56,446 nucleotides of DNA from a virus. The stretch covers positions 1-56,446 of the IMG/VR virus record IMGVR_UViG_3300042465_007438. One strand, 5' to 3'. Positions 13,001 to 27,767 of this stretch are shown piece after piece. The translations under genes were made by a program, and so were the position numbers. Each line of letters begins with the position of its first letter. Within the stretch, counting starts at the first letter, position 1. Below the pieces are notes generated by a model. It ran no database searches and had not been told where the DNA came from. It saw only the letters and a program-made list of their open reading frames with translations.

Positions 13001-13019
13001 ACAAAGTTAAGATTTTCTG

Positions 13020-13050
13020 CAAAGGTAAAAAATGTTATTTATAACACCAA
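13020..13050 (-). promoter_or_regulatory. Bacteroidota-type promoter for the leftward operon
   Basis: On the minus strand TACCTTTG lies at 13027-13020, matching the Bacteroides -7 box TAnnTTTG. A TTG lies at 13050-13048 with 20 bases between, matching the -33 element. The ATG of the first gene follows after about 19 bases. This implies the host housekeeping sigma factor reads the left operon. Confidence 0.6.
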
Positions 13051-13159
13051 CAGTTTTTTTAAAGAAATTGTAGTTGTTGGTTTTGCTTAACTTTCATCAC
13101 CACCATATATATCCCCAAGTTGTTGGTGTTATTATAAAACCAGTATACTAAGCCCTAAA

Positions 13160-13204
13160 CAGCGTTACGTAGTCCGCCCTATAGGGGCGGCTACTTCTGC
13201 GCTG
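13160..13204. repeat. Long GC-rich hairpin in the divergent region
   Basis: Nested stem: outer CAGCG (13160-13164) with CGCTG (13200-13204); inner GTAG, one bulged T, then CCGCCC (13169-13179) with GGGCGG and CTAC (13185-13194). The loop is about five bases. There is no T-run on the plus side, so it is probably not a simple terminator. It may be an origin, operator or RNA element. Confidence 0.6.
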
Positions 13205-13592
13205 CTTATTAAGGGAAAGTTCAACTATCAAAGATAATAATGGTTTGTCTATACTGACTACAATACCAACAGTACTAAAAGTAAGGTGAAACATTATTGG
13301 TTATATTTTACAAACTAACTATCAAAGTTTGATACTACTATCAGCTGGCTGGTAATAAGTCAGGTAGTTTTGTGAAAAAGTTGAAACTTGTATCAATTAA
13401 ATAATAAAGATATAAATAAAAATTTTTTATAATTTTTTTTGGCAACTGCAATTTCTAAGTATAGTCGTGTGATGGGGTTACCCTACCACCAGACCTACGC
13501 ACCCGTCCTTGACTTGGCAGGTACCCCCCCGGTTGCTTGTTGCCGATAGTGGCTTTTATCCGGGATTTGTTTTACGTAAAATGCTTTATTTT

Positions 13593-14018
13593 ATGAACGC
13601 TCCTAAAGTTCGCAAGATTGTTGGTGAGATTGTGTCTATCTCACCGCTGGACAGCAACGAGATTACTCTCATTAGCATCCAGGATTCAGACAACGATCTG
13701 CACACCGTCAGTACTTCCAACAAATACTGGAAAGCCGTAGGGCGTTTCTTCCAGGTTGGTAGTATTGTGGCGATTGAGGCAGAAGTGCGGGTGAAAGATG
13801 TCACCGAGTACACCGATGCAGCAGGTGCTACGCAAAAGCACACCAGCGACGGTATGAATATTGCGAGAGTTACTGCATACTCCGCGTCTGCCTGGAAGTC
13901 CGCACTCACCAAGAAAACCATTGCAGAAATGGAGGCGGCACTCAATACCGTTGATGTGGAGCGCGCTAATGCATTCGCTACTTTCTACGGTGCAGCCCTG
14001 GTAGCCATGAAGAATTAG
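13593..14018 (+). CDS. Hypothetical OB-fold-like protein
   Basis: 141 aa from ATG 13593 (MNAPKVRKIV); an ATG at 13581 is possible. The pattern VGEIVSISPLDSNEITLISIQDSDNDLHTVSTS followed by GSIVAIEAEVRV suggests a five-strand OB-like barrel, with a helical C-terminus. Base composition is more GC-rich than the replication genes. A clear terminator follows. It might bind single-stranded nucleic acid; not recognised as a known family. Confidence 0.6.
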   Translation: MNAPKVRKIVGEIVSISPLDSNEITLISIQDSDNDLHTVSTSNKYWKAVGRFFQVGSIVAIEAEVRVKDVTEYTDAAGATQKHTSDGMNIARVTAYSASAWKSALTKKTIAEMEAALNTVDVERANAFATFYGAALVAMKN

Positions 14019-14056
14019 AGGCAGGTGCTACCGCATTAAGAGCACCCTTCACCGCC

Positions 14057-14092
14057 AACCTGTCGGACTTCACTGTCCGGCAGGTTTTTTTT
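14057..14092 (+). terminator. Rho-independent terminator
   Basis: Stem of AACCTG and CGGAC (14057-14068, T between) with GTCCG and CAGGTT (14075-14086), followed by a run of eight T. Ends the 13593 transcript. Confidence 0.85.
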
Positions 14093-14127
14093 AACGGCAT
14101 TAAATAGAAAAGTAAATATCTTAATAT

Positions 14128-14319
14128 ATGAAACAGTTACTGTTTGTTCTAATTCTTTGCTTAGCCGCTTCGTGCGGCAAAACGAAAACCTACAAAGTCC
14201 AACCCATTGGGAAGGACTTTGTAGAAATCCACAACCTCAACAGCGGATTCGCTGTTGGGGACACAGTAAAATTATCCGTTACCCGAAAGGTACGGATAAT
14301 TCAGATCCTACCTGAGTAA
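14128..14319 (+). CDS. Small outer-membrane-type lipoprotein
   Basis: 63 aa. A short basic start, hydrophobic LLFVLILCLAAS and Cys at residue 16 form a lipobox, so the mature protein is a lipid-anchored peptide of about 48 residues with beta character. Phage lipoproteins of this kind can act in superinfection exclusion or as outer-membrane spanins; here the role is unknown. The coding sequence is almost entirely made of five successive stem-loops (14164-14178, 14191-14223, 14238-14257, 14271-14300, 14305-14330). Confidence 0.75.
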   Translation: MKQLLFVLILCLAASCGKTKTYKVQPIGKDFVEIHNLNSGFAVGDTVKLSVTRKVRIIQILPE

Positions 14320-14330
14320 TCAGGTAGGAT
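14305..14330 (+). terminator. Perfect hairpin spanning the lipoprotein stop codon
   Basis: ATCCTACCTGA pairs with TCAGGTAGGAT around loop GTAA; the stop codon is in the loop. Only a short T-stretch follows, so it could be a terminator or an mRNA 3' protection element. Its core of 17 bases recurs at 22273-22289. Confidence 0.55.
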
Positions 14331-14666
14331 TTCACTAATGCACCATTTCTACTTCCCAAGGGTAGACAGTTGTAATAGATGTAGTAGGACTCTACATAAA
14401 AAGACCAGGGATCATAACAACTGAGTGCAGAGGGGTGAATTTTACGGATAGTTAAGTCCACACGAAGCCCGAAACGTATGTCGGGAGGGGGTAAAATCCA
14501 ATAGCGTGATGGGGTTGCTTAACTGACGTAAAAGTGGAATTCAAACGGCACCATGTGTCACCGTTACAGTCGGTAAAAAAAACTTAATAACTTCCCAAGT
14601 TGTTGAGGGCACCAGTTTCTTTGATTAAAAAGTAAGGATTAAACACTAACTTATAAAACATCTAAT
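14331..14666 (+). other. Stretch without a clear gene, locally structured
   Basis: Three frames are broken by stops. Short inverted repeats are present: TCTAC with GTAGA near 14347-14365, and CCCGA with TCGGG around 14470-14485. The phrase GTGATGGGGTT (near 14507) also occurs near 13471, and CCCAAGTTGTTG occurs near 14595 and 13114. It may be a structured leader or a non-coding RNA; no named family recognised. Confidence 0.35.
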
Positions 14667-14915
14667 GTGAAGAGCATTAGTTTAGTTGGCTACCTTATCA
14701 AAGTTTTAGGTGTAAAACACAAAACATACCCAGAGAAAACTGGTGGGTATGTTATAGACAAGATGCTTATCGGAAGCAACGTAGCCCTCTTTGGAGACTT
14801 GCTACACCGCTCCTGTAAGTTCCCAGAGAAGTCTTGTCATTTGTGGAATTCAAGCACTACGCTACCGGGTAATAACCCTTGCAGTACCGTTATAGCCGGG
14901 ATTTTTAACGTTTAA
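14667..14915 (+). CDS. Doubtful small protein with GTG start
   Basis: 82 aa from GTG. Composition is plausible (TYPEKTGGYVIDKMLIGSNVALFGDLL), but there is no ATG at the start and no recognised domain. The bases also hold hairpins, such as ACATACCCA paired with TGGGTATGT around 14726-14752. It may be a structured RNA instead. Confidence 0.3.
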   Translation: MKSISLVGYLIKVLGVKHKTYPEKTGGYVIDKMLIGSNVALFGDLLHRSCKFPEKSCHLWNSSTTLPGNNPCSTVIAGIFNV

Positions 14916-14931
14916 TTAAAATTGATTAGAT

Positions 14932-15147
14932 ATGAAAACAATGAAAGTCACAGTATTCGACGTACCCCAGCCCTTAGTTGGGTACGTCGAGGCAGCCCTT
15001 CAAGGGCTGCATTACCCAACTGTATTCCGTTTTAGAAACGGAATGCACGCCAGCACGTGGGCATCGAAAGATGCCTACGATTGCTGGGTGGCAGTCGAAG
15101 GTTTACTGAAGGCGAAAGGCCTTCAGTATGAAGTTCGGATTAAGTAA
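14932..15147 (+). CDS. Hypothetical 71-aa protein with hairpin-rich coding sequence
   Basis: 71 aa, ATG after an A/T-rich leader ending in GATAT. A small alpha/beta protein (MKTMKVTVFDVPQPLVGYVE...). Five perfect stem-loops tile the gene: 14957-14990 (11 bp), 14992-15010 (7 bp), 15024-15044 (9 bp, TAG loop), 15060-15075 (6 bp, GAAA loop) and 15104-15128 (10 bp). The protein has no recognised family; the RNA structure may matter as much as the product. Confidence 0.6.
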   Translation: MKTMKVTVFDVPQPLVGYVEAALQGLHYPTVFRFRNGMHASTWASKDAYDCWVAVEGLLKAKGLQYEVRIK

Positions 15148-15148
15148 G

Positions 15149-15190
15149 GCAACCCCTGCTGCTGTAAAGTAGTAGGGGTTGCACATTTTT
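15149..15190 (+). terminator. Rho-independent terminator
   Basis: GCAACCCCTGCTGC (15149-15162) pairs with GTAGTAGGGGTTGC (15169-15182) with wobbles, followed by a six-T run after GCACA. Confidence 0.8.
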
Positions 15191-15450
15191 TAAGCCTACT
15201 CAACTGAGTAGGGTGGCTACGTGGTTTCAAGACCTGTTCGTAGTTATGACGCGGAATACAGCATGATTCGCTCTGTTGTATAGTCCGGCATAGTTATCCA
15301 AGTAGTTGAGGATAACCGCAATCTTGATAGTCCGTAAATTACCTTAGGACTAAAGGCTGTTGATGATCACTTTGAGTGATATTGACAGTTAAGGTAGCGT
15401 AAGTCACAGCGTTAGACGTGACAGGTTATTGTTAAATCTGATATTCCAAT
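15191..15450 (+). ncRNA. Candidate structured non-coding or leader RNA
   Basis: No open frame of note between a terminator and the next ATG. At least five local inverted repeats follow each other: CTACTCA/TGAGTAG (near 15196), GTTATCC/GGATAAC (near 15293-15316), TAGTCC/GGACTA (near 15328-15351), ATCACT/AGTGAT (near 15365-15380) and GTCAC/GTGAC (near 15403-15422). No known RNA family recognised. Confidence 0.4.
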
Positions 15451-15819
15451 ATGGGACAGATTATTAACATGACACCTCATCCCATTCACATTTGTGGAGA
15501 AGACGGACAAGTTGTCCGTACTATCCCAACAAGTGGATGGGAACTTCGGCTGTCTACCTCTACGGAGGTAGTCGACCAATTTGATGGTATCACCATTACC
15601 AAAACGGTATTTGGTGAACCCTCAGCGGTTCAGGGTAAGTCCTTTGATGGACAGCCTAACCCGTGGGAGACAATCAATCGTAGCAATCGCTACGTCGTCT
15701 CTCAATTGGTTAAGAACGCCTTTGTAGGTCACTGGTTAGGTGATCTCTTAGTTGTTCCAGCCGAAGTGGTACGAGATTCCAGCGGCAACATCCTCGGATG
15801 TAAGTCGTTGGGTATCTAA
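15451..15819 (+). CDS. Conserved phage protein with N-terminal NMTPHPI motif
   Basis: 122 aa. MGQIINMTPHPIHI followed by IPTSGWELRLSTSTEVV and later NRYVVSQLVKNAF, then GDLLVVPAEVVRDSSGNILG, matches a widespread small phage family that opens NLTPH and carries a P-x-S-G turn. I know no secure function for that family. The gene is hairpin-rich: 15503-15519, 15554-15571, 15679-15694 and 15788-15801. Confidence 0.65.
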   Translation: MGQIINMTPHPIHICGEDGQVVRTIPTSGWELRLSTSTEVVDQFDGITITKTVFGEPSAVQGKSFDGQPNPWETINRSNRYVVSQLVKNAFVGHWLGDLLVVPAEVVRDSSGNILGCKSLGI

Positions 15820-15965
15820 TACCTACGAGGAACTGAGTAAAGTCTCAGTATAATCAAAGCTCTCTATACCAATTACAGTAGGTATATGAGTAACATAGGG
15901 GTTATACCCATGCACTGTAGGAACATAGAGTGATACACTATGTTACCGTCAATGTATCTGTAATT

Positions 15966-16038
15966 GATCCCGTAGCTCAAAGGATAGAGCACCTGCCTTC
16001 TAAGCAGGCGGTTACAGGTTCGAGTCCTGTCGGGATTA
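15966..16038 (+). tRNA. tRNA-Arg(TCT)
   Basis: 73 nt cloverleaf: acceptor GATCCCG with CGGGATT and discriminator A, D-stem GCTC/GAGC, anticodon stem CCTGC/GCAGG with loop CTTCTAA giving anticodon TCT, T-arm ACAGG TTCGAGT CCTGT. CCA is not encoded. It reads AGA, a frequent codon in this AT-rich phage. Confidence 0.92.
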
Positions 16039-16044
16039 CAAAAA

Positions 16045-16076
16045 AACACATCACTGCATTGGTGTTGTTTTTTATT
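16045..16076 (+). terminator. Possible terminator after tRNA-Arg
   Basis: AACAC (16045-16049) can pair with GTGTT (16062-16066), followed by G and six T. The stem is short. Confidence 0.35.
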
Positions 16077-16134
16077 TTACTTACTGATGCAGCAGAAAAC
16101 AAACACATACTGGCTCTGTATAAACCAGGTTGAT

Positions 16135-16815
16135 ATGAACAAAATATCATATTCTTTTCCTGTAAGTGGCAACGACGTTGCCGAACTTCTTTCACAAAAA
16201 CACCGCACTCCCAGCGGTGGAGAATTTAATAACCCCAAATCCTGGATCTGGGAAATCCGGGACAAATACTGCAAAGGAAAATTTGGCCTAGGAAAGGCCA
16301 ACTTCCGCATTTTTGCGGATAAATTAGTATTTGTAAACGCAGCCCAGAGTTACGCTTGGGTATGCGTATTCACCCAAGAATTTGCGGCAAAAAGAAAGGC
16401 AATCGCCGATTCTATTGCAGAAAAAAACGCCGCTGCTGAAGCAGAGGTACTTTCTTTCACCGGTGTTGCCGTCATTACGACGGGACACGAAACGTGGTCA
16501 CCCAGTGGCCGCGAGGAGTGGAAGAAAAAAGAAATAGTAAAATTTGAGAACGGAATTCCAGTAGAAATACTGGAATCCGATCACTACTCTTCCGAGTATA
16601 CCTCGGGAGACAGAGCGTACGGTCTAGAACCGTACGCAGAAGGGAAAGATTTTATGTTGACCGAAGATGCTTGGGAAACTTTAGTTTCCTGGTATCAGCC
16701 GACATTAGTAATCAAAGTCTTAACCCGTGACAACGGGCAGTATGAAGAACATGATTACCGTTTAAACGGGGAGTACGTGCCCTCTCGGGCATGTATGGAA
16801 CTGATTAAGCGGTAA
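16135..16815 (+). CDS. Hypothetical 226-aa protein
   Basis: I chose ATG 16135 (MNKISYSFPVSGNDVAELL); an ATG at 16087 lies too close to the tRNA. No membrane segment. Residues 95-120 are charged and helical (KRKAIADSIAEKNAAAEAEV); the rest is mixed alpha/beta with many aromatic residues. Not recognised. Strong stem-loops lie in the coding sequence: 16555-16576 (GAAA loop), 16615-16637 (9 bp), 16674-16689 and 16724-16737. Confidence 0.65.
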   Translation: MNKISYSFPVSGNDVAELLSQKHRTPSGGEFNNPKSWIWEIRDKYCKGKFGLGKANFRIFADKLVFVNAAQSYAWVCVFTQEFAAKRKAIADSIAEKNAAAEAEVLSFTGVAVITTGHETWSPSGREEWKKKEIVKFENGIPVEILESDHYSSEYTSGDRAYGLEPYAEGKDFMLTEDAWETLVSWYQPTLVIKVLTRDNGQYEEHDYRLNGEYVPSRACMELIKR

Positions 16816-16820
16816 TAAAA

Positions 16821-16848
16821 AACCTTGCACAAGTGATTGTGCAAGGTT
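16821..16848 (+). other. 12-bp perfect hairpin after the 226-aa gene
   Basis: AACCTTGCACAA pairs with TTGTGCAAGGTT around loop GTGA. There is no T-run after it, so it is a weak terminator candidate; it may stabilise the 3' end of the transcript. Confidence 0.6.
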
Positions 16849-16933
16849 GGTTCACGAACGGCTGAAAAATCCATGCCGTGTACTGTAAGTATGTGTGAAA
16901 TGGTAATATTATTTAACATTAAATTATTTACGC

Positions 16934-17131
16934 ATGATTGTAGTGCATATTTCCTTGCTCACGAACAATTACTATCACGTATTCAGCAGCAAAAAGGATG
17001 CTGTTGAATATGCGGAACTGTGTGAGTTAAACTACCAAGACGAATATGTCGTGGTAGTTGATACTACCACACAAGAACAAGTGTATTACCGGGATTATAC
17101 CGATAATGATGAGGAACCATCCTATGAGTAG
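16934..17131 (+). CDS. Small hypothetical protein
   Basis: 65 aa (MIVVHISLLTNNYYHVFSSK...), a beta-alpha start and an acidic end. The leader TTAAATTATTTACGC before the ATG is a recurring motif in this window. The gene contains a perfect hairpin at 17051-17070 with loop TGAT. Unknown function. Confidence 0.6.
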   Translation: MIVVHISLLTNNYYHVFSSKKDAVEYAELCELNYQDEYVVVVDTTTQEQVYYRDYTDNDEEPSYE

Positions 17132-17375
17132 TGATTGCACACGGGTCGAGTACGTGGTAAAAATCACCGCTATAACCTCGGAAGAGGATACTAGCGGGGG
17201 TTACATCACGCAGCACCGTCAGGTAGGCGGCATCATCATCGATTCGCAGTGGGCTGAAAAGTTCACTGGTAAAGTCGGTGATGAAGTCAAATGGTGTGAA
17301 TGGATCGAAAGCGAAGGTGTCTACGGGCACCTTATCGTAACAGGTCTGGGCACTATTGTTTACGTTAATGCGTAG
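17124..17375 (+). CDS. Small hypothetical beta-rich protein
   Basis: 83 aa starting MSSDCTRVEY. ATG 17124 overlaps the previous stop by eight bases (ATGAGTAG), the same coupling as at 8406. Strands VEYVVKITAITS and GDEVKWCEWIES, then a C-terminal VTGLGTIVYV. No family recognised. Confidence 0.6.
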   Translation: MSSDCTRVEYVVKITAITSEEDTSGGYITQHRQVGGIIIDSQWAEKFTGKVGDEVKWCEWIESEGVYGHLIVTGLGTIVYVNA

Positions 17376-17620
17376 ACACTACCAGTGGAGGGCATACTAA
17401 GTTGCTCAGGGATATAAAGTCAGAAGACTTCCCGCACGATAAAAGGTGTGAATAAACAAGGTGAGAATCTTTGTAATGGAAGGGAGTGGTTTCTGTTTTA
17501 TAAACAGAAATTCCTACGCTCTAAGCTTGAGCCACGTCGAAAGGCGGATGAAATGTAACTGAAGTCCAGCAGAGAATGGTATAAGGTTGCTTTTTTTAAA
17601 CAATTTAAATTTAATTTATT
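17376..17620 (+). ncRNA. Candidate structured RNA or leader
   Basis: About 245 bases without a good frame. It contains TTTCTG/CAGAAA around an AT loop (near 17489-17509), flanked by GGGAGTGG and CTACGCTC on the two sides, and several short GC stems. It does not fold into a tRNA by eye. It precedes a small gene through an AT-rich leader. Confidence 0.35.
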
Positions 17621-17812
17621 ATGGAATATCCAATTCAATTCTTCCCTACAGGATTTGACCGCATGTCCATCGAAGCCACCATGGAAGGGTGGCAGTTGTC
17701 CATTAATTGGACAGAGTTTGAGGAAGATGGACATAGTCACTGTTACGCAGAATATCTCGTAACAAAAGACAAGGCAGTGTTAATCAAAGGAGATTTTTAT
17801 CCCTTTGATTAA
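17621..17812 (+). CDS. Small hypothetical protein
   Basis: 63 aa. MEYPIQFFPTGFDRMSIEA, then a W-rich beta pattern (GWQLSINWTEF) and the acidic end KGDFYPFD. The leader TTTAAATTTAATTTATT precedes the ATG. It lies 59 bases before the first variable FGE-fold gene. Function unknown. Confidence 0.55.
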   Translation: MEYPIQFFPTGFDRMSIEATMEGWQLSINWTEFEEDGHSHCYAEYLVTKDKAVLIKGDFYPFD

Positions 17813-17871
17813 TAAGATAAGGCAGTCGTAAGATAGCTTCCTATTCTTTTATCATTAATTTATAATATTAT

Positions 17872-18495
17872 ATGATTGACATGATCTCAGTAGAAGGAGG
17901 TACTTTCCTTTTAGGAAAAGTAACTCCTATAGAACTCTCCGATTTCAAAATCGGAAAGTACCCCGTCACCCAAGCGCAGTGGCGGGAAGTGATGGGTAGT
18001 AATCCGTCGTGGTTTAAAAACTGCGATAATTGTCCCGTAGAAGACGTATCCTGGAACGATATTCAGGACTTCCTGAAAAAACTCAACGACCTCACCGGTA
18101 AAACCTACCGCCTGCCTACGGAAGCCGAATGGGAATACGCTGCACAAGGCGGAAATTATAGCCTTGGCTATAAATATGCCGGAAGTAACAACTTGCAAAA
18201 AGTAGGTTGGTACTTAGGCAACTCTGGCGGCAAAACCCACCCGGTAGGCCGGAAAAAACCCAACGAACTGGGGTTGTACGATATGAGCGGGAACGTATGG
18301 GAGTGGTGCTGGGATTGGTACGGGGATTATCCGCCGGATGCAAAGAAGGATTACGCCGGGCCGGAAAAGGGCTCTGGCCGCGTGATTCGCGGCGGCGGCT
18401 GGCTCCACAGCGCCAAGTTCTGCCGCGCCGCTAATCGCTACAGCAACACGCCGTCGCTTCGCGACTATGACGTCGGCTTCCGGTTAGCAATGTAA
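17872..18495 (+). CDS. FGE/SUMF1-fold protein with variable C-terminus (retroelement target 1)
   Basis: 207 aa forming a single formylglycine-generating-enzyme (C-type-lectin-like) domain: GGTFLLGK start, GKYPVTQAQWREVMG, PVEDVSW, YRLPTEAEWEYAA, GLYDMSGNVWEWCWDW, then RVIRGGGW and an end GFRLAM. It is unlikely to be an enzyme: phage proteins of this fold are usual targets of diversity-generating retroelements and bind receptors. The last 35 codons before LAM (18379-18483) form the variable repeat. There is no signal peptide or tail-attachment domain, so how it is displayed is unclear. A 14-bp hairpin follows 16 bases after the repeat. Confidence 0.85.
   Translation: MIDMISVEGGTFLLGKVTPIELSDFKIGKYPVTQAQWREVMGSNPSWFKNCDNCPVEDVSWNDIQDFLKKLNDLTGKTYRLPTEAEWEYAAQGGNYSLGYKYAGSNNLQKVGWYLGNSGGKTHPVGRKKPNELGLYDMSGNVWEWCWDWYGDYPPDAKKDYAGPEKGSGRVIRGGGWLHSAKFCRAANRYSNTPSLRDYDVGFRLAM
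18379..18483 (+). repeat. Variable repeat 1 of a diversity-generating retroelement
   Basis: 105 bases aligned with 21801-21905. Over the first 102 bases they differ at 18 sites, all at codon positions 1 or 2 and none at position 3, although the upstream parts of the two genes differ freely at third positions. This is the mark of adenine-directed copying from a template rich in AAC/AAT codons. Much more GC-rich than its surroundings. Confidence 0.85.
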
Positions 18496-18498
18496 AAA

Positions 18499-18532
18499 AT
18501 GCCTGTCTCAGCAAAAGAGCTGGGACAGGCAT
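18499..18532 (+). terminator. 14-bp hairpin after variable repeat 1
   Basis: ATGCCTGTC then CAGC pairs with GCTG then GACAGGCAT, with one wobble and a six-base loop; a short T-rich tract follows. It may be a terminator. Hairpins just downstream of variable repeats also serve as target-recognition elements in known retroelement systems. Confidence 0.65.
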
Positions 18533-18631
18533 ATATTTATGCAAATATAAGGTTCAAACTCCTTGTAAAACATATGCAGATGACACTAATGTGTAATGCA
18601 GATATTTGCAAAAAACTTTACTTAACATCCT

Positions 18632-18865
18632 ATGGATAACTTAGTAACAACCGATTACACGAACTCCAAAACTCCTTATCGGGTTCGGTTAATGGAGGAA
18701 CTTAACCCCCTTCATAGCTGGAGATTCGAAACCGAAGAGGAATGCCTAGTGGCGATTTCTCTTTGGCTTGCTACTCCTGCAGAAGCAAGAGAAGTCACTC
18801 ATTTTTATCATACGTTTAAAAACGTATTGAGAATGATAGGCTGCAATACTAGTTGGAGCCATTAA
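18632..18865 (+). CDS. Small hypothetical protein
   Basis: 77 aa: MDNLVTTDYTNSKTPYRVRLM, then helical EECLVAISLWLATPAEAREV. No domain recognised. Contains a perfect inverted repeat at 18810-18827. The bases between 18541 and 18631 hold no gene. Confidence 0.6.
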   Translation: MDNLVTTDYTNSKTPYRVRLMEELNPLHSWRFETEEECLVAISLWLATPAEAREVTHFYHTFKNVLRMIGCNTSWSH

Positions 18866-18927
18866 AAAAATAAGTTGTAGGTGTATATACTTAAACCTTC
18901 ATTTTTTTCACATAAAATAAAAAAATC

Positions 18928-19476
18928 ATGCGAATTGAACCATCACAAAGACTTGGGTTTTCCGAGTTTGCACAACACGCCTGCAATATGGCAAAAGAAA
19001 AACAAGTCTCAATAGAGTTTGATTGGAGTGGGATTGAATACGTTATTCCTCCAGGTACTCCATTTAAAGTTTTTCTAAAAAGAGCAACTGAGCTCCAGCA
19101 AGAAAGAATTAGAGAAAGGGAAACTTCTTTAGAAGGAATTAAATACAAAGAAGAACAAAGGAAAAAAGAAGAAGAGAGAAGACAACGATACTTAAACCTA
19201 ATGTGTGAGTTTCCAGATCTAGAAAATCTAGAAGAAACTCTAGACTGGTGCTATGAGATATTTAAAACGGGAAATTATTCTCGTAATTCCCGCATTTTAA
19301 ATGTATTCATAGCGTATTCATTAATTCCAGGAATGGAATTAGTATTTGATGATAGCAGTAAAGAAAGTTATGCTAAAATATTAATAGGAACCTTTCTAAC
19401 CGGCGTTGAAAACGGAGCAATACCAGAAGCGTTTCATCGCTTTTACAAGGATTTTAAAACAACATTTGCAAAATGA
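18928..19476 (+). CDS. Hypothetical protein with charged coiled coil
   Basis: 182 aa. Residues 50-90 are a very charged helix (TELQQERIRERETSLEGIKY then KEEQRKKEEERRQR), followed by a helical C-terminal domain. The stop overlaps the next ATG by four bases. Inverted repeats include 19322-19341 with loop GGAA. Unknown role. Confidence 0.6.
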   Translation: MRIEPSQRLGFSEFAQHACNMAKEKQVSIEFDWSGIEYVIPPGTPFKVFLKRATELQQERIRERETSLEGIKYKEEQRKKEEERRQRYLNLMCEFPDLENLEETLDWCYEIFKTGNYSRNSRILNVFIAYSLIPGMELVFDDSSKESYAKILIGTFLTGVENGAIPEAFHRFYKDFKTTFAK

Positions 19477-19769
19477 GCAACCTATATTGGAAAACCCAAA
19501 CAGGGCAACTTGTTTCCGTCGATGATATGACGGAAGATCACTTAAGGAATACCTTAAAGTGGATTATCAAAAATAATCCACATTTCTGTGCTGATTGTGG
19601 GTACATTGTACCTCCAACTTCAGTACATACAGAAAGGTGTCAACGAGTTGCAAAAAAGAAAATGGCTAAAGGTGCCACTAAATTTCGTCTCAACGGGGAC
19701 ATAGCACAGTCGTTTAACGACACTATGGAACAAGTTGAACAGGCGGAAGAAGCAAACTGGAATTACTAA
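19473..19769 (+). CDS. Small zinc-finger-like protein
   Basis: 98 aa with CADCGYIV then HTERC, a C-x2-C...H-x3-C set that could bind zinc (residues 39-56). The C-terminus is acidic and helical. ATGA-coupled to the previous gene. Contains hairpin 19559-19581 (9 bp). Possibly a nucleic-acid or protein adaptor. Confidence 0.6.
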   Translation: MSNLYWKTQTGQLVSVDDMTEDHLRNTLKWIIKNNPHFCADCGYIVPPTSVHTERCQRVAKKKMAKGATKFRLNGDIAQSFNDTMEQVEQAEEANWNY

Positions 19770-20004
19770 AAAAAACTGACCGGATTCGGTATTTAAGTTC
19801 GGCTCCTGTTTCGGAGTAAGAAACACATGATATTTCATTATGTGGTATTCTATTTACCTTGGGACTGTTAATGACATTGATCTATTTCAATGGATTAAGA
19901 TTAGTCTTAACTGATTTACATTACCCTTACCAGTCGGGGTTGGATAAAGAGAGAGACTGGTATTTTATTTTCAATTAAATTTTCATTACTAAATTTTCAA
20001 AAAA
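19770..20004 (+). other. Leader of the ClpX-like gene with terminator-type hairpin
   Basis: No gene. TACCAGTC (19928-19935) pairs with GACTGGTA (19955-19962), followed by TTTTATTTTC. It could terminate upstream reads or attenuate the ClpX-like gene, whose ATG lies at 20005 after an A-run. Confidence 0.5.
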
Positions 20005-20820
20005 ATGGTACAAGGACAAGAAACTGTAGTTAAAGACCTTACCCGTCTTATGACTATTTTTAAAAAATCAAATGCGGCTATACGCCCACACTTTATTTTG
20101 ACCGGTCCTTCTGGATCGGGAAAAAGTTTCACGATTAGCACTTTGTGTAGCACTCTAGATCTCCCTTTTGTGGAAATAAACGGGGCTCAGTTAACTAAGG
20201 AAGGAACATCAGGAAACAGTGTTTCTAAAGCGCTCGCCCCCTTAGTAAATATGAGTGCAAAACCGTGTGTCTGTTTTGTAGACGAGTTTGACAAACTGTT
20301 TATCAGTGGAAACTCCAACTCTGACTTGGCTCACGAAAGTACCAATGGAGTACAAAATGAATTCCTCAAGGTACTTGAATCTGATGAAGCAACTGTATAT
20401 GGAGATTACGGAAAATACATAAATGTTTCTGTAAAAAACGTATTGTTTGTTTTTGCAGGAGCATTCAACGGCCAGCCTGAAATTGGAATAGATGAACTTC
20501 GTAAATTCGGAATCAAAACTGAATTTATTGGACGAGTTGGTCTGGTTTACAATGTGCAACCTTTGACCTTAGATACGTTGTATTCTATTTTTGAATCGTC
20601 TACGCTTTTCAAAAATTATGTACAGCTAATGGCTAATGTCGATCTTGAAAAAGCAAAGGATGAAATCAAGGTTCAAATACAAAAGAACTTTGAAAATAAT
20701 ACCTTGGGAGCGAGGATGATTACGACTTTAATTCATCAGTATTTTATTAAAGGCGGCTTTAAGGACGACGAAGTAAAACACATTACATTTCAAGAAAAAT
20801 TGAATTTTGAAACTATTTAA
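20005..20820 (+). CDS. ClpX-like AAA+ ATPase
   Basis: 271 aa. Walker A GPSGSGKS at residues 34-41, Walker B CVCFVDEFDKL near 89-99, NEFLKVLES and FVFAGAF as in ClpX, then KTEFIGRVGLVYNVQPL (sensor 2/EFIGR region) and a C-terminal small domain TLGARMITTL. There is no N-terminal zinc-binding domain. ClpX unfolds proteins and feeds ClpP; no ClpP is seen here, so this may be a stand-alone unfoldase or may borrow host ClpP. ATPase confidence is high; its target is unknown. Confidence 0.85.
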   Translation: MVQGQETVVKDLTRLMTIFKKSNAAIRPHFILTGPSGSGKSFTISTLCSTLDLPFVEINGAQLTKEGTSGNSVSKALAPLVNMSAKPCVCFVDEFDKLFISGNSNSDLAHESTNGVQNEFLKVLESDEATVYGDYGKYINVSVKNVLFVFAGAFNGQPEIGIDELRKFGIKTEFIGRVGLVYNVQPLTLDTLYSIFESSTLFKNYVQLMANVDLEKAKDEIKVQIQKNFENNTLGARMITTLIHQYFIKGGFKDDEVKHITFQEKLNFETI

Positions 20821-21024
20821 ATGATGAAAAAAGATTTATCATTACCATTGCTAGGATTTACAATTCTAGCAATTTGCTTACTCCTCAGCCTTGTATCTTG
20901 TCGTAGTTATTATGCAGGATATGGTAAAGGACAAGCAAAGCACCGGAAGTGCGGCCAGAGGAATACAAACAGCCGTATTTTTGGGGCAATCCAGACAGAT
21001 ACGCTGTGCATATCAAAGCCGTAA
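20821..21024 (+). CDS. Small lipoprotein
   Basis: 67 aa. Lys start, hydrophobic ILAICLLLSLVSC with Cys at 27 as a lipobox, then a basic region KHRKCGQRN. It starts directly after the ClpX-like stop. Could be an outer-membrane spanin or exclusion lipoprotein; not proven. Confidence 0.6.
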   Translation: MMKKDLSLPLLGFTILAICLLLSLVSCRSYYAGYGKGQAKHRKCGQRNTNSRIFGAIQTDTLCISKP

Positions 21025-21314
21025 AACAAGAAGGCAATTTGAGTTCTCTCTAACCAGTACATATCCGAATCAGTTTTACTGAATAGATGTGGTAAAAAGA
21101 GAGTTACAACAATATCAAAGTGACGCACCTGAAGTGGAGCAATGCGATAAATCCTACAGACTATAAAGTTGAATGTCTGTAGTGGTCACAATGATACCCT
21201 GATGAATAAAATCTAATACCAATGGGTTAAATTGGTTTTTTACACAGTAAAATAAATAAACTCGATATTTTTATTTTTTTAAACTTAACAACATGAAAAA
21301 AAAAATAATAAAAC
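21025..21314 (+). ncRNA. Candidate structured RNA or leader
   Basis: 290 bases without a good frame. CTACAGAC and GTCTGTAG (near 21153-21182) make an 8-bp stem; CTCTC and GAGAG (near 21044-21101) enclose a second. It resembles the other gene-poor segments of this region in being packed with short inverted repeats. Confidence 0.35.
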
Positions 21315-22235
21315 ATGGAAAACAAAAAATTTATTGAAACGGTGCTCATCGAAGGTGGTACATTTTTATTGGGTGGCGAAGTAAATGTTACCGTACCTTC
21401 CTTCGAGATCGGAAAGTATCCCGTAACCCAAAAGCAATGGGTTGAAATAATGGGTACTAATCCTTCTCACTTTTCCGGTGATAGCCTTCCGGTTGAAAAT
21501 GTCAGTTGGGAGGACGTGCAGGCCTTCCTAACAAAACTGAATACCATAGACCCGAATAAAAACTACCGTCTTCCTACCGAAGCAGAATGGGAATATGCAG
21601 CTCGTGGCGGTAATCAATCGCAAGGATATGAATACAGCGGCAGCGATTTTCTGAAAGAAGTAGGTTGGTATTATGAAAATTCCAACGACAAAACCCATCC
21701 TGTCGGTCAGTTAAAACCCAATGAATTGGGATTGTACGACATGAGTGGAAATGTTTGGGAATGGTGCGAAGATCAAAGCGAAGATCAAAACGGCTCTTTC
21801 CGCGTGAATCGCGGCGGCGGCTGGTTCACCTACGCCGAGTTCTGCCGCGCCGCTTATCGCCGCGGCAGCACGCCGGCGCGTCGCTACAATAGCGTCGGCT
21901 TCCGCATTTGTCGTTCTCTTGTTAAAACAATGGAAACAGAGTCAATAACACAGGATTTATTAATAGACGTAAAAAGAGGGATTAAGTTCTTTTTTGAAGA
22001 ACAAAGTTATTCTTCTATTTATGAAGGAATCCGGGTACCTGTACGCGATTTAGGCATATTTGATATAAAACTATTAAGTATAAAGCCTGTAGTAAAAGTT
22101 GAAATTCATCTCGACCGTCCCGAGTTATTGGTTGGTTTTGGAGGATTAAGGCTAACAATGTTAGAAAACTTTCTTTCAAATAGACTTGAAGTACCAGTTA
22201 CTATTGATATCAAAGAGGTTACATTTTGGCCTTAA
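21315..22235 (+). CDS. FGE/SUMF1-fold protein with internal variable repeat (retroelement target 2)
   Basis: 306 aa. Residues 1-197 are a paralogue of the 17872 protein with the same landmarks (GKYPVTQKQWVEIMG, YRLPTEAEWEYAA, GLYDMSGNVWEWCEDQ, RVNRGGGW, VGFRICRS). Unlike usual targets, the protein continues about 104 residues after the variable repeat. That extension is alpha/beta (LLIDVKRGIKFFFEEQSYSS; PVVKVEIHLDRPELLVGFGG; PVTIDIKEVTFW) and not recognised; it may be an anchoring or partner domain. Start at ATG 21315 after an A-rich leader. Confidence 0.8.
   Translation: MENKKFIETVLIEGGTFLLGGEVNVTVPSFEIGKYPVTQKQWVEIMGTNPSHFSGDSLPVENVSWEDVQAFLTKLNTIDPNKNYRLPTEAEWEYAARGGNQSQGYEYSGSDFLKEVGWYYENSNDKTHPVGQLKPNELGLYDMSGNVWEWCEDQSEDQNGSFRVNRGGGWFTYAEFCRAAYRRGSTPARRYNSVGFRICRSLVKTMETESITQDLLIDVKRGIKFFFEEQSYSSIYEGIRVPVRDLGIFDIKLLSIKPVVKVEIHLDRPELLVGFGGLRLTMLENFLSNRLEVPVTIDIKEVTFWP
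21801..21905 (+). repeat. Variable repeat 2 of a diversity-generating retroelement
   Basis: Pairs with 18379-18483. The conserved frame RGGGW, FCRAA and VGF is kept while the residues between change. All 18 differences in the first 102 bases fall at codon positions 1 and 2. It is internal to the gene. Confidence 0.8.
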
Positions 22236-22272
22236 AAATCCAAAAAACGGAATCGAAGTAATCATCTGGTCA

Positions 22273-22289
22273 CTACCTGAGTAATCAGG
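22273..22289 (+). repeat. 17-base repeat shared with 14308-14324
   Basis: CTACCTGAGTAATCAGG is identical at both sites. Its core CCTGA-GTAA-TCAGG is a small hairpin. At the first site it spans a stop codon; here it is 38 bases after one. Confidence 0.7.
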
Positions 22290-22386
22290 ATAAATTAACG
22301 AATCCGAAATCCCTATGGGAAGATGGACTTCCAGTAGATTCCCACAGCATTGTTTACACCTTTAACAAGGTTTGGATGCTGTTTAT

Positions 22387-22458
22387 GATCCTGTAATTTA
22401 ATGGATAAAATGCAAATCTTCTAAATTTGTAATGCAGGTTCGATTCCTGTCAGGATCA
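22387..22458 (+). tRNA. tRNA-Arg(TCT), second copy
   Basis: 72 nt. Acceptor GATCCTG/CAGGATC with discriminator A, A/T-rich D-arm, anticodon stem CAAAT/ATTTG with loop CTTCTAA (anticodon TCT), T-arm GCAGG TTCGATT CCTGT. Same anticodon as the tRNA at 15966 but a divergent, AT-rich body, so not a recent duplicate. Confidence 0.85.
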
Positions 22459-22472
22459 CAATTAATAAAACT

Positions 22473-22551
22473 GCCCGGGTGGTGAAATGGTAAACACGTC
22501 GATTTTAAGCATCGATCCGTAAGGTTGCAGGTTCGAGTCCTGTTCCGGGTA
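22473..22551 (+). tRNA. tRNA-Leu(TAA)
   Basis: 79 nt. Acceptor GCCCGGG/TCCGGGT with end wobbles and discriminator A, anticodon stem TCGAT/ATCGA with loop TTTAAGC (anticodon TAA), a shortened variable arm, and T-arm GCAGG TTCGAGT CCTGT. Reads TTA, the most AT-rich leucine codon. Confidence 0.85.
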
Positions 22552-22611
22552 CATTCATTTACAATGCGGTATTTTATACCGTACTTTTTTTCATTAAAAC
22601 TTTTATATAAA

Positions 22612-23016
22612 ATGCGTACACTTATTATTGTTATTATCACCGCTTCCATTCTGTTGGGCGGTTACTGTTACGAAATCCAACGAGTTGCAAAGTTGGAAGA
22701 ACGTGCTAAGCTCGAATTGGAGTATGACTGCTGGAAAAACACAGCACAAATTCTCCACGACTCACTCCTTGCTACTACAGGCAGGGATGTGCCTGTACCT
22801 GTACTTATTTACTTTAAGGTAAAAACCCTTGAAGAAATACCTGATTCAATTTTAACAAATGAATCTTGTGCCCCTTGCTGGATACTTCATTCTGAAATAA
22901 ACACAGACGATGAAAAAAATCGTCTTTTGGACATCAATGAACTTTATTTTAACGATTATGAACTTGCCGCAGAAGTTCGAGCAAAACGCTCGGTTCAGTC
23001 TGCTAACGTACGTTAG
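22612..23016 (+). CDS. Membrane-anchored protein next to the lysozyme
   Basis: 134 aa from ATG 22612 (MRTLIIVIITASILLGGY). One N-terminal membrane segment, then a charged helix IQRVAKLEERAKLELEYDC. It overlaps the lysozyme gene by 107 bases. An inner-membrane spanin or lysis accessory is possible; no family assigned. Confidence 0.6.
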   Translation: MRTLIIVIITASILLGGYCYEIQRVAKLEERAKLELEYDCWKNTAQILHDSLLATTGRDVPVPVLIYFKVKTLEEIPDSILTNESCAPCWILHSEINTDDEKNRLLDINELYFNDYELAAEVRAKRSVQSANVR

Positions 23017-23761
23017 CAAAAGCAGTGTGTCAACGATAGCGTTTCATTCCGGAACACTATTGTTGATTGTAGTACTTTCTGGGATTATAGTTGGGCTTTG
23101 CTTAAAACCTAAGCAAGTTATAATTAGAGATACTCAGAAAATAATAGTACAAAAAGAAATCAAAACAACAGACACAGTATATGCCATGAAAGTAATTCCG
23201 GTAAATAAAAGTTGGTTTAGTCCAACTCCGGAAAAAAAACAAAAAATAGAAAACAAAACATCTGGATATACTAAGTATGAAAAAATTATGTGGGCATTGA
23301 AAACAGAAGAATCTTTTAGAAGTAAGGCCTATCCCGATGGGCCTTATTACTCTATTGGATTTGGATTCAACATGAACCCACATAATAAAAGAATGTTACA
23401 GCAACAAGAAAAAACACATTTGATTAAAGGTTGGGGTAAAGGTGCAACGACTACTTGGGAAAACTCTATTGTCTTAACCCAAATTTTTATTGATCACAAC
23501 ATTACCCCTAACTTAAAAAATCAGAAATTAACGCACGATCAGTATGTTGCTAAAGCTCTTAAGTTTTACAATAGCGGGTCTTTTTCTTTAGGATCTTGTT
23601 GCAACGGAAAAAAAGGTTGTGGTAATAGAAACAAAAACATTAGAACCCACCACAACAAACGAAGAAATTTTGAGTCTCGTTTGTACAAGGGAAGGATAAA
23701 TGATGCAACCTGGGACAAAATTAGAAAAAAAGCGATTAGCATCGAAATGAATCATCGCTGA
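22910..23761 (+). CDS. Phage lysozyme (T4-type fold) with membrane anchor
   Basis: 283 aa. Residues 48-65 are a membrane segment (TLLLIVVLSGIIVGLCL). The catalytic domain follows: WALKTEESFRSKAYPDGPYYSIGFGFN has the Glu of E-x8-Y-x-D and the G-x-G strand of T4-like muramidases. The C-terminus is basic, with several Cys and Asn (GSCCNGKKGCGNRNKNI). It probably cleaves peptidoglycan at lysis and may be held in the inner membrane until release. The ATG lies within the previous gene; no later ATG keeps the membrane segment, so the long overlap is probably real. Confidence 0.75.
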   Translation: MKKIVFWTSMNFILTIMNLPQKFEQNARFSLLTYVSKSSVSTIAFHSGTLLLIVVLSGIIVGLCLKPKQVIIRDTQKIIVQKEIKTTDTVYAMKVIPVNKSWFSPTPEKKQKIENKTSGYTKYEKIMWALKTEESFRSKAYPDGPYYSIGFGFNMNPHNKRMLQQQEKTHLIKGWGKGATTTWENSIVLTQIFIDHNITPNLKNQKLTHDQYVAKALKFYNSGSFSLGSCCNGKKGCGNRNKNIRTHHNKRRNFESRLYKGRINDATWDKIRKKAISIEMNHR

Positions 23762-23767
23762 TTCATA

Positions 23768-23849
23768 GCGCCCGTGGTGTAATTGGTAGTCACGAGGGAA
23801 AATCCCTTGATCTGAAAAGGTCGTGCAGGTTCGAGTCCTGTCGGGCGCA
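23768..23849 (+). pseudogene. tRNA-Leu(TAA)-type gene with deleted anticodon
   Basis: 82 nt. Acceptor GCGCCCG/CGGGCGC is perfect, D-arm is normal, the long variable arm GATCT-GAAA-AGGTC marks a Leu or Ser type, and the T-arm is intact. The anticodon arm reads AGGGA-AAA-TCCCT. Typical tRNA-Leu(TAA) has AGGGA, a seven-base loop, TCCCT, so four loop bases including U33 and part of the anticodon are missing. It cannot decode as written. Everything else is conserved, which suggests a recent loss or a non-decoding role. Confidence 0.75.
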
Positions 23850-23870
23850 CTAAATTAAAACTTTTATATT

Positions 23871-23954
23871 ATGATGAATGAAGTAAACTTAACAATCCTA
23901 ATACTATTTTCTCTTATTTTCATTTATAAAACAAGAAAGTATGAAAAAGAATGA
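23871..23954 (+). CDS. Possible 27-aa membrane peptide
   Basis: MMNEVNLTILILFSLIFIYK followed by TRKYEKE. One membrane helix and a basic end. It overlaps the next ATG by 14 bases. The leader AAAACTTTTATATT fits other genes here. Very short, so tentative. Confidence 0.35.
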   Translation: MMNEVNLTILILFSLIFIYKTRKYEKE

Positions 23955-24195
23955 TCTTCTACACCTTCGAGATAATCTGGAAACAGAAATCTCGAAAATT
24001 AAAAATTTCAACTTTAAAAGATCTTATCAAGTAACAGATATGGTATATCTACAACCTGCCAGTGTCCATAAAATTGTGGATGGTAGGTTTGTAGGTAACT
24101 CAGTCTGGGAAGATCAAACGATGGACGTAATAACTTTAGCGCCATCGGAAATAGATCTTGATAGTCTGATCTTTTTATATTCAGAAACACTTTAA
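23941..24195 (+). CDS. Small hypothetical protein
   Basis: 84 aa. A helical N-terminus (NDLLHLRDNLETEISKIKNF) then beta structure and an acidic C-terminus. No family recognised. Confidence 0.55.
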   Translation: MKKNDLLHLRDNLETEISKIKNFNFKRSYQVTDMVYLQPASVHKIVDGRFVGNSVWEDQTMDVITLAPSEIDLDSLIFLYSETL

Positions 24196-24230
24196 AAAAT
24201 ATTTTGCTGATTAAATAAATAAAAACCTTT

Positions 24231-24638
24231 ATGTCTTTCTTATCTAATAACTTAAAATCCCTAGCAGAAATCCGCAGAGATCTAACGGATTTAGCGTGGG
24301 AAACAACTGGAGAAATATGTCCAAAAACTCTTATGGGTGCATGTGCTATATCAGCAAAAATGGTTTATAAATTTTTAAAATCTAATAATATAGATTGTAA
24401 AATTATTCATAATGATGGTCATTTTTGGTGTAGAAGCATGGGTTATACAATAGACTTGACAATTTCACAATTTGAAAGTTCTATTCCCGGGGTTTATATA
24501 GAATCTGAAGAACTTGAAAATAAGTTTGACTTTTATAATAATGCTATTGTCTTAGAAGGAGACTTGACTCAAGAGTATTTGGAATCAATCCGTTGGCCAG
24601 AGTATCAATCTCCTTTTACTTATTATAACGAAGAGTAA
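24231..24638 (+). CDS. Putative papain/transglutaminase-like cysteine protein
   Basis: 135 aa. Cys in LMGACAISAKMVYKFLK, His in NDGHFWCRS and Asp in YTIDLTISQF give a Cys-His-Asp order as in transglutaminase-like and papain-like folds; the Cys begins a helix, as in that fold, and DLT-x-SQF is a common end of the family in bacteria. It may be a peptidase, deamidase or amidase acting on a host protein. Catalysis is inferred from motif order only. Confidence 0.55.
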   Translation: MSFLSNNLKSLAEIRRDLTDLAWETTGEICPKTLMGACAISAKMVYKFLKSNNIDCKIIHNDGHFWCRSMGYTIDLTISQFESSIPGVYIESEELENKFDFYNNAIVLEGDLTQEYLESIRWPEYQSPFTYYNEE

Positions 24639-24641
24639 ACA

Positions 24642-24869
24642 ATGAATAAAATCAAATACCCTTGGAAAAAAGCACCAGATGAAGCAAATTTTGCAGCAAC
24701 TAATAGTGACGGAATTGCTTTCTGGTTTGAAAAAAAACCTTCATTAGAACCTTTAAGATGGGCTCATATGTACAATGATAAATTAGCATATGTACCACAT
24801 AGTCCTAAAATAAAGGGTAAAATGACAACCAAAAATTGGGAAGATTCATTACAAAAGCGTCCTGAATAA
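24642..24869 (+). CDS. Tandem small paralogue A
   Basis: 75 aa: KYPWKKAPDEANFAATNSDG, then AFWFEKKPSLEPLRW and an end NWEDSLQKRP. One of three adjacent homologues sharing a Trp/Ala-x-D/N-x-x-G-x...(F/W)-x-x-KP core. Compact beta-type protein; function unknown. Confidence 0.6.
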   Translation: MNKIKYPWKKAPDEANFAATNSDGIAFWFEKKPSLEPLRWAHMYNDKLAYVPHSPKIKGKMTTKNWEDSLQKRPE

Positions 24870-25111
24870 TGGAAAAACAAGAAATAAATTACCCGTGGCA
24901 CAAAGCGCCCGATTGGGCGCAATGGGCCGCTATTGATCAAAATGGTGAAGCTTATTGGCTTGGAAAAAAGCCGTATTTAGGGATTAGAACATGGCAATGC
25001 AGTAACTATTCTCAATATTTTGATTGCGCTATTCCCAAAGACTTTAATTGGAAAAAATCACTACAAAAAAGACCCGATGGAAGTCTTAATCAAACCCCAG
25101 AAGTGGGTTAA
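24869..25111 (+). CDS. Tandem small paralogue B
   Basis: 80 aa: YPWHKAPDWAQWAAIDQNGE, then AYWLGKKPYLGIRTWQC and WKKSLQKRPDG. Its ATG overlaps the previous stop by one base. It contains a GCGCCC/GGGCGC hairpin at 24903-24918. Same family as its neighbours. Confidence 0.6.
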   Translation: MEKQEINYPWHKAPDWAQWAAIDQNGEAYWLGKKPYLGIRTWQCSNYSQYFDCAIPKDFNWKKSLQKRPDGSLNQTPEVG

Positions 25112-25319
25112 ATGGATAGCAATAGACGGGGACGGCGAAATATTTGGTTTTGAAGAAAAACCGTATGCCGTCCCCAGTCTAAAAAGCTGGTGGGGGTTTA
25201 AACGAAGAATGTTTCTGGGAGTCGATAGAACTACTGACTGGAAAGAACATTGGGAAACCTCTTTAAAAGAATATCAAATTTACTTAACTAAACTCTACTA
25301 TGAAAGGAGTATGGATTGA
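25077..25319 (+). CDS. Tandem small paralogue C
   Basis: 80 aa from ATG 25077 (MEVLIKPQKWVKWIAIDGDG), then FGFEEKPYAVPSLKSWWG and a longer end with HWETSLKEYQ. It overlaps paralogue B by 35 bases; an upstream ATG at 25020 would only lengthen the overlap. The most diverged of the three. Confidence 0.6.
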   Translation: MEVLIKPQKWVKWIAIDGDGEIFGFEEKPYAVPSLKSWWGFKRRMFLGVDRTTDWKEHWETSLKEYQIYLTKLYYERSMD

Positions 25320-25692
25320 ATCTCTCACAATGCAAGAGATTAAAAAAAAGTATCCTGATCTTAATGCTCAAGAATACCAATGTCAGATGCACCATCTAAA
25401 AATTAAAAAGATCGGCAGTCCTGTAGAAATTGAGGAAACAAAACAACACCAAAAAAAATGGTTTTACAAAGTGAAAGGTAAATGGTTTGATGAAACGCAA
25501 GTTTGTCCAGTCATTGATCCGGTCATAGAACTCTTAAACCAAATGCCTGAAAAGTTCAAAACGGTAGAATTTGTAAAAGCGGCTGAAGTGCAATACAAGA
25601 TGAAGCTAAATACGGTAGTATTACACCTTCAGCAGGCGAGAAAAAACAAACTAATCACAAACTATAAGTTTACATGGCAAAAATTATCTTAA
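25300..25692 (+). CDS. Hypothetical protein with helix-turn-helix-like ends
   Basis: 130 aa. N-terminus SLTMQEIKKKYPDLNAQEYQ resembles a small DNA-binding helix pair; C-terminal FVKAAEVQYKMKLNTVVLHL may be a second. The middle is basic. Overlaps the genes on both sides by about 20 bases. Possible DNA-binding protein. Confidence 0.5.
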   Translation: MKGVWIESLTMQEIKKKYPDLNAQEYQCQMHHLKIKKIGSPVEIEETKQHQKKWFYKVKGKWFDETQVCPVIDPVIELLNQMPEKFKTVEFVKAAEVQYKMKLNTVVLHLQQARKNKLITNYKFTWQKLS

Positions 25693-26057
25693 GTCTTTTT
25701 TTATTAATCCCGTGGACTTTACAGTCTCAGAAAATTTTCTTTGCTGATAAAAATCAAACAATAGAGTTTGAGTTAGATAGCATCAATATGATTTCACACT
25801 TCAACTACAATACAAGTAGGTTAGACACCATTCTTTCGTACTATGGTAATCCTAAAATGGATATTGTATGCGATGAAAAAGTAGAGAAATTTCTCTTTGC
25901 TTGTTATACAATCGATTTAAACGTCGAAGATGACTGGAGAGAACTCTTTTACTATTGCGGAATTGATTGGCAAAAACATCGTCGGTTTATTCCCAGTATT
26001 TTACTTCGAATAAATCCACGCTTAAGTGAATCAGACATTTTAAATATCTATCGGTAA
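25674..26057 (+). CDS. Exported hypothetical protein
   Basis: 127 aa with a signal peptide (MAKIILSLFLLIPWTLQSQK, likely cut after QSQ). The mature part is acidic, with three Cys (CDEKVEKFLFACY; YYCGIDW). Secreted to the periplasm by pattern; role unknown. The start overlaps the previous gene by 19 bases. Confidence 0.6.
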   Translation: MAKIILSLFLLIPWTLQSQKIFFADKNQTIEFELDSINMISHFNYNTSRLDTILSYYGNPKMDIVCDEKVEKFLFACYTIDLNVEDDWRELFYYCGIDWQKHRRFIPSILLRINPRLSESDILNIYR

Positions 26058-26222: not shown

Positions 26223-26223
26223 C

Positions 26224-27760: not shown

Positions 27761-27767
27761 TTAAATA

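Follow-up and report, generated by a model that had tools for sequence, protein, structure and literature searches.

Virus record IMGVR_UViG_3300042465_007438 (56,446 bases, analysed over its whole length and hereafter called the window) carries a zone of dense, short hairpins in a run of small rightward genes between 14 and 20 kb. The genes of the record are those of a double-stranded DNA (dsDNA) tailed phage (terminase, portal and DNA polymerase). Its leftward genes include portal and terminase (PHROGs matches on the minus strand); small rightward genes begin at ~13.5 kb after a 500-base gap, as judged from the orientation of open reading frames (ORFs); and rightward replication genes (DNA polymerase, helicases, primase, dUTPase and thymidylate synthase) follow from 31 kb. 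The gap between the leftward and rightward units is the probable start of early transcription, and the 13.5–20 kb zone is probably transcribed early, given its position and gene type. In a search of a phage collection, TerL matched mostly crAss-like or Bacteroidota phages (24–27% identity over ~90%), and crAss-like phages are among the fullest matches of the DNA polymerase. Because both sets of matches point to crAss-like phages, the record is, by these two Crassvirales markers, a crAss-like phage. Crassvirales carry capsid and giant RNA polymerase genes and have genomes of about 95–105 kb; the 56-kb record looks incomplete because neither capsid nor giant RNA polymerase genes were identified in it.

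We counted perfect stems and compared predicted folding energies with a small number of shuffles (4–40 per test). Between 14 and 20 kb there are 21 perfect stems of at least 7 bp (loop 3–8) and 12 of at least 8 bp, against 2.4 and 0.7 expected from dinucleotide shuffles. Counted by 2-kb bin, stems of 7 bp or longer number 8, 7 and 6 in this interval (shuffle expectation 0.8 per bin); no bin outside 12–30 kb has more than 3 (range 0–3). On the sense strand, the folding z score per 100 nt is −2.66, −3.17, −3.70 and −2.29 at 14, 15, 16 and 17 kb, drops to between −1.7 and −1.3 at 18–20 kb, lies at about −0.8 to −1.5 at 20–28 kb and averages about −0.5 beyond 33 kb. The best 3-kb mean is −3.15 in the zone, while outside the zone and its fading part it is −1.1. 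The folding excess is restricted to 14–20 kb plus a fading tail to ~33 kb and is not genome-wide.

These profiles agree with an earlier, sequence-only reading of this DNA, which had placed the dense hairpins at 14–20 kb, with a thinner continuation downstream. Two outcomes that it had named as refuting, an equal stem density in codon-preserving shuffles and an equal density at 31–44 kb, did not occur. Each of the eight hairpins for which it gave coordinates is a perfect inverted repeat, the arms measuring 6–9 bp, although two of them (15503–15519 and 18156–18173) have loops of only 1 or 2 nt when fully paired and are effectively 7-bp arms with 3–4 nt loops. The five successive hairpins that it described in a 192-base lipoprotein gene are present, and the five stems that it gave for a 216-base gene at 14932, found here as 11, 8, about 9, 6 and 10 bp, were correct within 1 bp. 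It had set the hairpins inside reading frames; in the zone, stem density is 4.2/kb in coding and 2.1/kb in non-coding sequence. Its statement that polymerase and helicase genes do not look like this holds for the helicase (34057–35259, little or no excess) but not wholly for the polymerase, whose excess of −0.03 kcal/nt is significant though small (early genes, −0.04 to −0.18 kcal/nt).

The folding of the zone exceeds what protein and codon usage allow. When synonymous codons are permuted within each gene, so that both are kept, the stem density is not reproduced: the early genes together contain 37 stems of at least 6 bp, compared with 9.0 in the shuffles, and their energy z scores are about −3.1 to −8.6 for most genes and −1.7 for 14667–14915. 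Most hairpins are built by synonymous codon choice. The FGE gene (17872–18495) has an excess of −0.048 kcal/nt over its own codon shuffles, whereas 26 bacterial FGE homologues average +0.003 kcal/nt (standard deviation 0.010) over theirs; because the bacterial homologues have no folding excess, the structure was imposed within the phage. In addition, the protein encoded at 15451–15819, which is also present in Paenibacillus phages, an Altiarchaeum virus and environmental viruses, has three in-frame insertions (8, 4 and 3 aa) that seven homologues lack, and each insertion falls within a hairpin taken from the sequence. This suggests that small insertions supplying an arm and a loop are tolerated, although hairpins fill so much of this gene that three out of three is no proof.

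Features of the hairpin zone and its surroundings in the window (ORFs with their lengths in amino acids; z, energy score against codon-preserving shuffles)
Feature	Coordinates	Strand	Evidence
Zone of dense short hairpins in probable early genes	14000..19800	+	stem counts, folding z, codon shuffles
Fading zone, weaker yet significant excess in several genes to DNA polymerase	20821..33603	+	folding z, codon shuffles
Non-coding divergence region between leftward (terminase, portal) and rightward units	13001..13508	.	ORF orientation, PHROGs
63-aa lipoprotein-like ORF, five successive hairpins, the last (14305-14330) spanning the stop codon	14128..14319	+	z −5.1; −7.1 at span <=40 nt
71-aa ORF, five hairpins	14932..15147	+	z −4.8; −6.9 at span <=40 nt
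122-aa conserved small protein (PHROG 30542), three in-frame insertions	15451..15819	+	z −4.4
tRNA-Arg (TCT) within zone	15966..16039	+	
242-aa ORF, no relatives detected, top gene-level signal; hairpins at 16280, 16555, 16588, 16615, 16774	16087..16815	+	z −8.6
Intergenic 12-bp hairpin, GTGA loop	16821..16848	+	
65-aa ORF, hairpins at 16980, 17030, 17051	16934..17131	+	codon shuffle, stem list
63-aa ORF, hairpin 17780-17812	17621..17812	+	codon shuffle, stem list
FGE-sulfatase (SUMF1-like) gene	17872..18495	+	PF03781 E 2.6e-48
77-aa ORF in zone	18632..18865	+	z −4.2
182-aa ORF, hairpin 19322-19341 with GGAA loop	18928..19476	+	codon shuffle, stem list
98-aa ORF, hairpin 19556-19584	19473..19769	+	codon shuffle, stem list
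AAA ATPase (PHROG 5534), first gene of fading part	20005..20820	+	z −6.9

A reading of the zone as structured non-coding RNA was rejected, since Rfam families gave credible matches only to tRNAs and group I intron pieces and those zone genes that have homologues are coding. A second FGE/SUMF1-like gene lies at 21315–22235, ~3 kb from the first; a diversity-generating retroelement acting on the FGE genes was considered and rejected, as the record contains no reverse transcriptase.

We then compared the window with other phages. The survey covered 70 phage loci, 69 of them fetched via the neighbouring ATPase (PHROG 5534), so that the sample is centred on one gene family. Only one locus, L070, has a 3-kb stretch with a mean z below −2.3; its best stretch reaches −3.21, compared with a median of −1.32 for best stretches. 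The L070 contig is a siphophage whose terminase is nearest to those of Acinetobacter phages such as EAb13 (47%) and which encodes a lambda-J-like tail protein; it is unrelated to the crAss-like phage of the window. Its hairpin zone comes after the primase, at the place that in EAb13 is taken by the terminal repeat and the first genes, and lies in a probable early region; a homologue of the PHROG 5534 ATPase sits downstream of it, as in the window. Stems in L070 reach 20 bp and codon-shuffle z scores reach −7.4. Part of its intergenic hairpins are terminator-like, and hairpin runs also occupy reading frames (e.g. 6493–6903). Two parS-like palindromes (TGTTCCACGTGGAACA) also occur in this probable early region (L070:7236–7251 and 7391–7414), and may belong to a partition system or serve as a decoy for host ParB.

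No comparable zone was found in the profiled parts of JWF, N4, Pollock, phi14:2, crAss001, SPO1, ProJPt-Bp1 and cr273_1, the last of which reaches −2.1 in one early kilobase. Two general causes were rejected on this basis: (i) a virion RNA polymerase, because phi14:2, crAss001, N4 and Pollock lack a zone of this kind; and (ii) a general trait of host-takeover zones, because the terminal redundancy of SPO1 and Achromobacter phage JWF show nothing and EAb13 has only a mild excess, confined to its terminal repeat.

The structure is local. When only pairs spanning up to 30 or 40 nt are allowed, the excess is already complete (−0.091 and −0.099 kcal/nt, respectively), and long-range folded RNA was rejected because spans above 40 nt contribute nothing extra. 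Relative to codon shuffles, the excess is −0.085 kcal/nt on the sense strand and −0.063 kcal/nt on the antisense strand, which is likewise strongly in excess; the sense strand is the stronger in 10 of the 12 genes of the window (p 0.002) and in eight of nine in L070 (p 0.008). Near-perfect stems contain 14 G.U wobbles and 3 A.C mismatches, a ratio that is supportive only, given 23:13 in the rest of the genome. Hairpins with 4-nt loops and stems of at least 6 bp (n=20) include five GNRA loops and one UNCG loop, but no complement of either. Accessibility is higher around start codons (0.53) than at random positions in the zone (0.45; p 0.005). Pairing by codon position shows a slight preference of register (22/13/13) that is not significant. 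Strand bias, wobbles, loops and open starts together point to the RNA level, in translated messages.

This bears directly on a mutational explanation, by which template switching during replication writes or repairs perfect inverted repeats (quasi-palindrome correction) and selection only purges the harmful ones. The often perfect stems, which reach 20 bp in L070, are what such a process would leave, the three insertions at 15451–15819 each supply part of a hairpin, and template switching has been considered for the coding palindromes of nematomorph mitochondria (PMC6649704). However, a DNA-level process should be strand-symmetric, and this symmetry is found in neither phage, the sense strand being significantly stronger in both. 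The wobble counts, with the limit given above, the presence of GNRA and UNCG loops without their complements, the confinement to one zone and the sparing of starts also argue against it. We consider this explanation distinctly unlikely. Templated correction, which the sequence-only reading had listed among the possible causes, fails on its own to account for the strand asymmetry but may supply raw hairpins, as in the in-frame insertions.

Nor do the hairpins form a sequence family: no repeat family in 12.9–21.4 kb covers them and they have no common sequence. Mobile palindromic elements, similar to Rickettsia palindromic elements or repetitive extragenic palindromes, were rejected because copies with a recognisable common sequence are absent. 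A motif, CCAAGTNGTTGNGG, occurs in non-coding gaps of the early region (13115–13128, 14595–14608 and 15298–15311), with seven matches in the window at no more than two mismatches, against 2.25 by chance, and is possibly a promoter or RNA element; as a conserved motif behind the hairpins it was rejected, since few of them are covered by it. N4-type polymerases use DNA hairpin promoters, and together with the strong antisense excess this would fit hairpins that act in single-stranded DNA, for example as origin, packaging or polymerase entry sites. Such a DNA-level role is nevertheless very improbable in view of the lack of a common sequence, the preference for the sense strand and the tens of sites spread through reading frames.

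Alternatively, hairpins could serve translational or dosage control by slowing ribosomes or coupling neighbouring genes, which would limit toxic early proteins. The enrichment of stems in coding sequence is consistent with this, as are the small early genes, which are plausibly host-takeover genes. However, start regions exceed random sites of the zone in accessibility, and the hairpins are scattered along and between genes without conserved placement, so that we hold control of translation to be improbable.

The short span of the hairpins also raises a co-transcriptional explanation, in which hairpins in the nascent RNA prevent R-loops and deny Rho loading when early transcription is fast or poorly coupled, for instance if a crAss-like virion RNA polymerase carries it out. 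All of the excess comes from hairpins that are small enough to form right where the RNA leaves the polymerase, the excess is highest where the probable early unit begins and declines from there on, and genes for virion-type RNA polymerases are annotated in crAss001 and phi14:2. Yet phi14:2, crAss001 and N4 have virion RNA polymerases and no such zone, no polymerase of this kind was seen in the parts read of L070's siphophage group, and translated sequence of the zone holds more stems per kb than its non-coding sequence. The observations that point to selection on early mRNA would suit such a role too; we rate it as unlikely, although with a better chance than the other three alternatives.

Relatives of the window offer a further view of its helices. 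Three contigs (L002, L072 and L073) are fragments of relatives (polymerase 71%, terminase 75% and 57%); none extends into the hairpin zone, and no relative of the early zone was found in IMG/VR with five proteins or alignments. The left end of L002, which matches the 23-kb region of the window, shows a raised folding excess, so the fading part of the trait is common to this relative. In five weakly structured downstream genes shared with L002, helices are kept only as often as identity allows, without an excess of compensatory changes. The absence of a common hairpin sequence and the lack of conservation of these downstream helices fit a bulk property rather than specific sites. In L072, a terminase match of 717 aa extends over 3.2 kb (3318–6530), and the gene is interrupted by an intron or intein.

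Taken together, the sense bias, the confinement to one zone, the codon-shuffle result and the recurrence in an unrelated phage point to selection on the shape of early mRNA. Selection for folded mRNA, one of the causes proposed by the sequence-only reading, is thus supported by codon shuffles, sense bias, open starts, G.U pairs, GNRA/UNCG loops and the absence of the trait from bacterial homologues. A possible mechanism is as follows: (i) synonymous codon choice for the most part, helped by small in-frame insertions, would have turned the probable immediate-early mRNAs into rows of short hairpins, each self-contained; (ii) the hairpins would form as the RNA exits the polymerase; (iii) they would act as generic armour, leaving few single-stranded stretches for cleavage by candidate attackers such as single-strand-specific endoribonucleases, RNA-guided interference (Cas13, type III) or RNase toxins; and (iv) they would protect when phage messages are still few, while translating ribosomes would melt each hairpin as they pass.

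We rate highest the possibility that folding shields early messages when RNA-guided interference, or cleavage specific for single strands, would otherwise strike them, even though we give it somewhat less than an even chance; it ranks first because it needs no sequence conservation, local hairpins suffice and the early zone fits. In vitro, a type III CRISPR complex can detect its target RNA less well when the target is structured, by as much as two orders of magnitude (PMC8682760). In the zone, the unpaired fraction is 0.451, compared with 0.505 in shuffles (standard deviation of shuffles 0.006). Several observations weigh against a protective function. Unpaired runs of at least 12 nt are only modestly fewer, a smaller drop than would be desirable in a shield against guide-directed cleavage. 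The two phages do not consistently sequester any one tri- or dinucleotide, so that the hiding of one specific RNase motif was rejected; together with the modest fall in long unpaired runs, this argues against sharply targeted armour. The early timing of the zone is deduced from gene order alone, and phi14:2, crAss001, N4, Pollock, SPO1 and JWF do without a hairpin zone. More tentatively still, some dsDNA phages may armour their first transcripts by recoding early genes and slightly lengthening their proteins, so that the mRNA becomes a row of short hairpins which would blunt RNA-targeting immunity or RNases; this counter-defence, in the shape of RNA and not in a protein, would have evolved independently in unrelated phages.

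Dense local folding that a dsDNA phage keeps only in its probable early mRNAs would imply that selection can act on transcript shape in DNA viruses as well, and such shape might serve as a passive counter-defence against RNA-targeting systems. Which host activity (RNase, Cas13/type III, Rho or R-loops) makes it costly for early phage mRNA to be unstructured thereby becomes a testable question. Sequence alone suffices to detect the trait, and its distribution can therefore be measured against host defence repertoires.

Two further features lie outside the zone. Group I intron pieces (RF00028) at 37428–38295 flank an HNH endonuclease ORF (37675–38271), and this segment is probably a homing intron that separates two stretches of the replication region. 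On the minus strand, ORF 8399–10159 begins like an exonuclease and continues with a segment that resembles unrelated PHROGs (terminase, primase and DnaC-like), which suggests an intein or other shared inserted domain.

We compared the hairpin zone with known systems of structured coding sequence. No dsDNA phage with a comparable zone is reported in the open-licence literature searched, in agreement with the earlier remark that a DNA-phage system with this pattern is not known to have been described. In bacterial coding regions, weak local mRNA structure is under selection (Katz and Burge 2003, as cited in PMC6563262); the phage zone is similar in that sense-strand structure is kept by synonymous choice, but its signal exceeds the bacterial one many times over and covers only a few kilobases. 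Rickettsia palindromic elements, as cited in PMC6649704, are in-frame, hairpin-carrying insertions in proteins; so described, they resemble the insertions found here in bringing a hairpin into a protein, but they are one mobile sequence family, unlike the phage hairpins. The coding palindromes of nematomorph mitochondria (arms 15–142 bp, mean 43, spread over the mitochondrial genome; PMC6649704) are likewise perfect inverted repeats in translated genes with both arms coding, whereas the phage arms are mostly 6–12 bp, dense and confined to one part of the genome. Genome-scale ordered RNA structure (GORS) is pervasive coding-sequence folding in positive-strand RNA viruses that has been linked to persistence and immune evasion (PMC3695492, PMC7642675). 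Pervasive coding structure is therefore already known in RNA viruses, and it is the occurrence of such a zone in a dsDNA phage that has no precedent in the literature searched. GORS occurs in the RNA genomes of mammalian viruses and extends over all or most of the genome, whereas in this dsDNA phage it is mRNA that folds, only within a probable early zone and only through hairpins that span at most 40 nt. As in GORS, however, folding energies lie below protein- and codon-preserving controls, and the coding sequence is pervasively folded beyond the needs of protein and codon usage, with no single conserved element.

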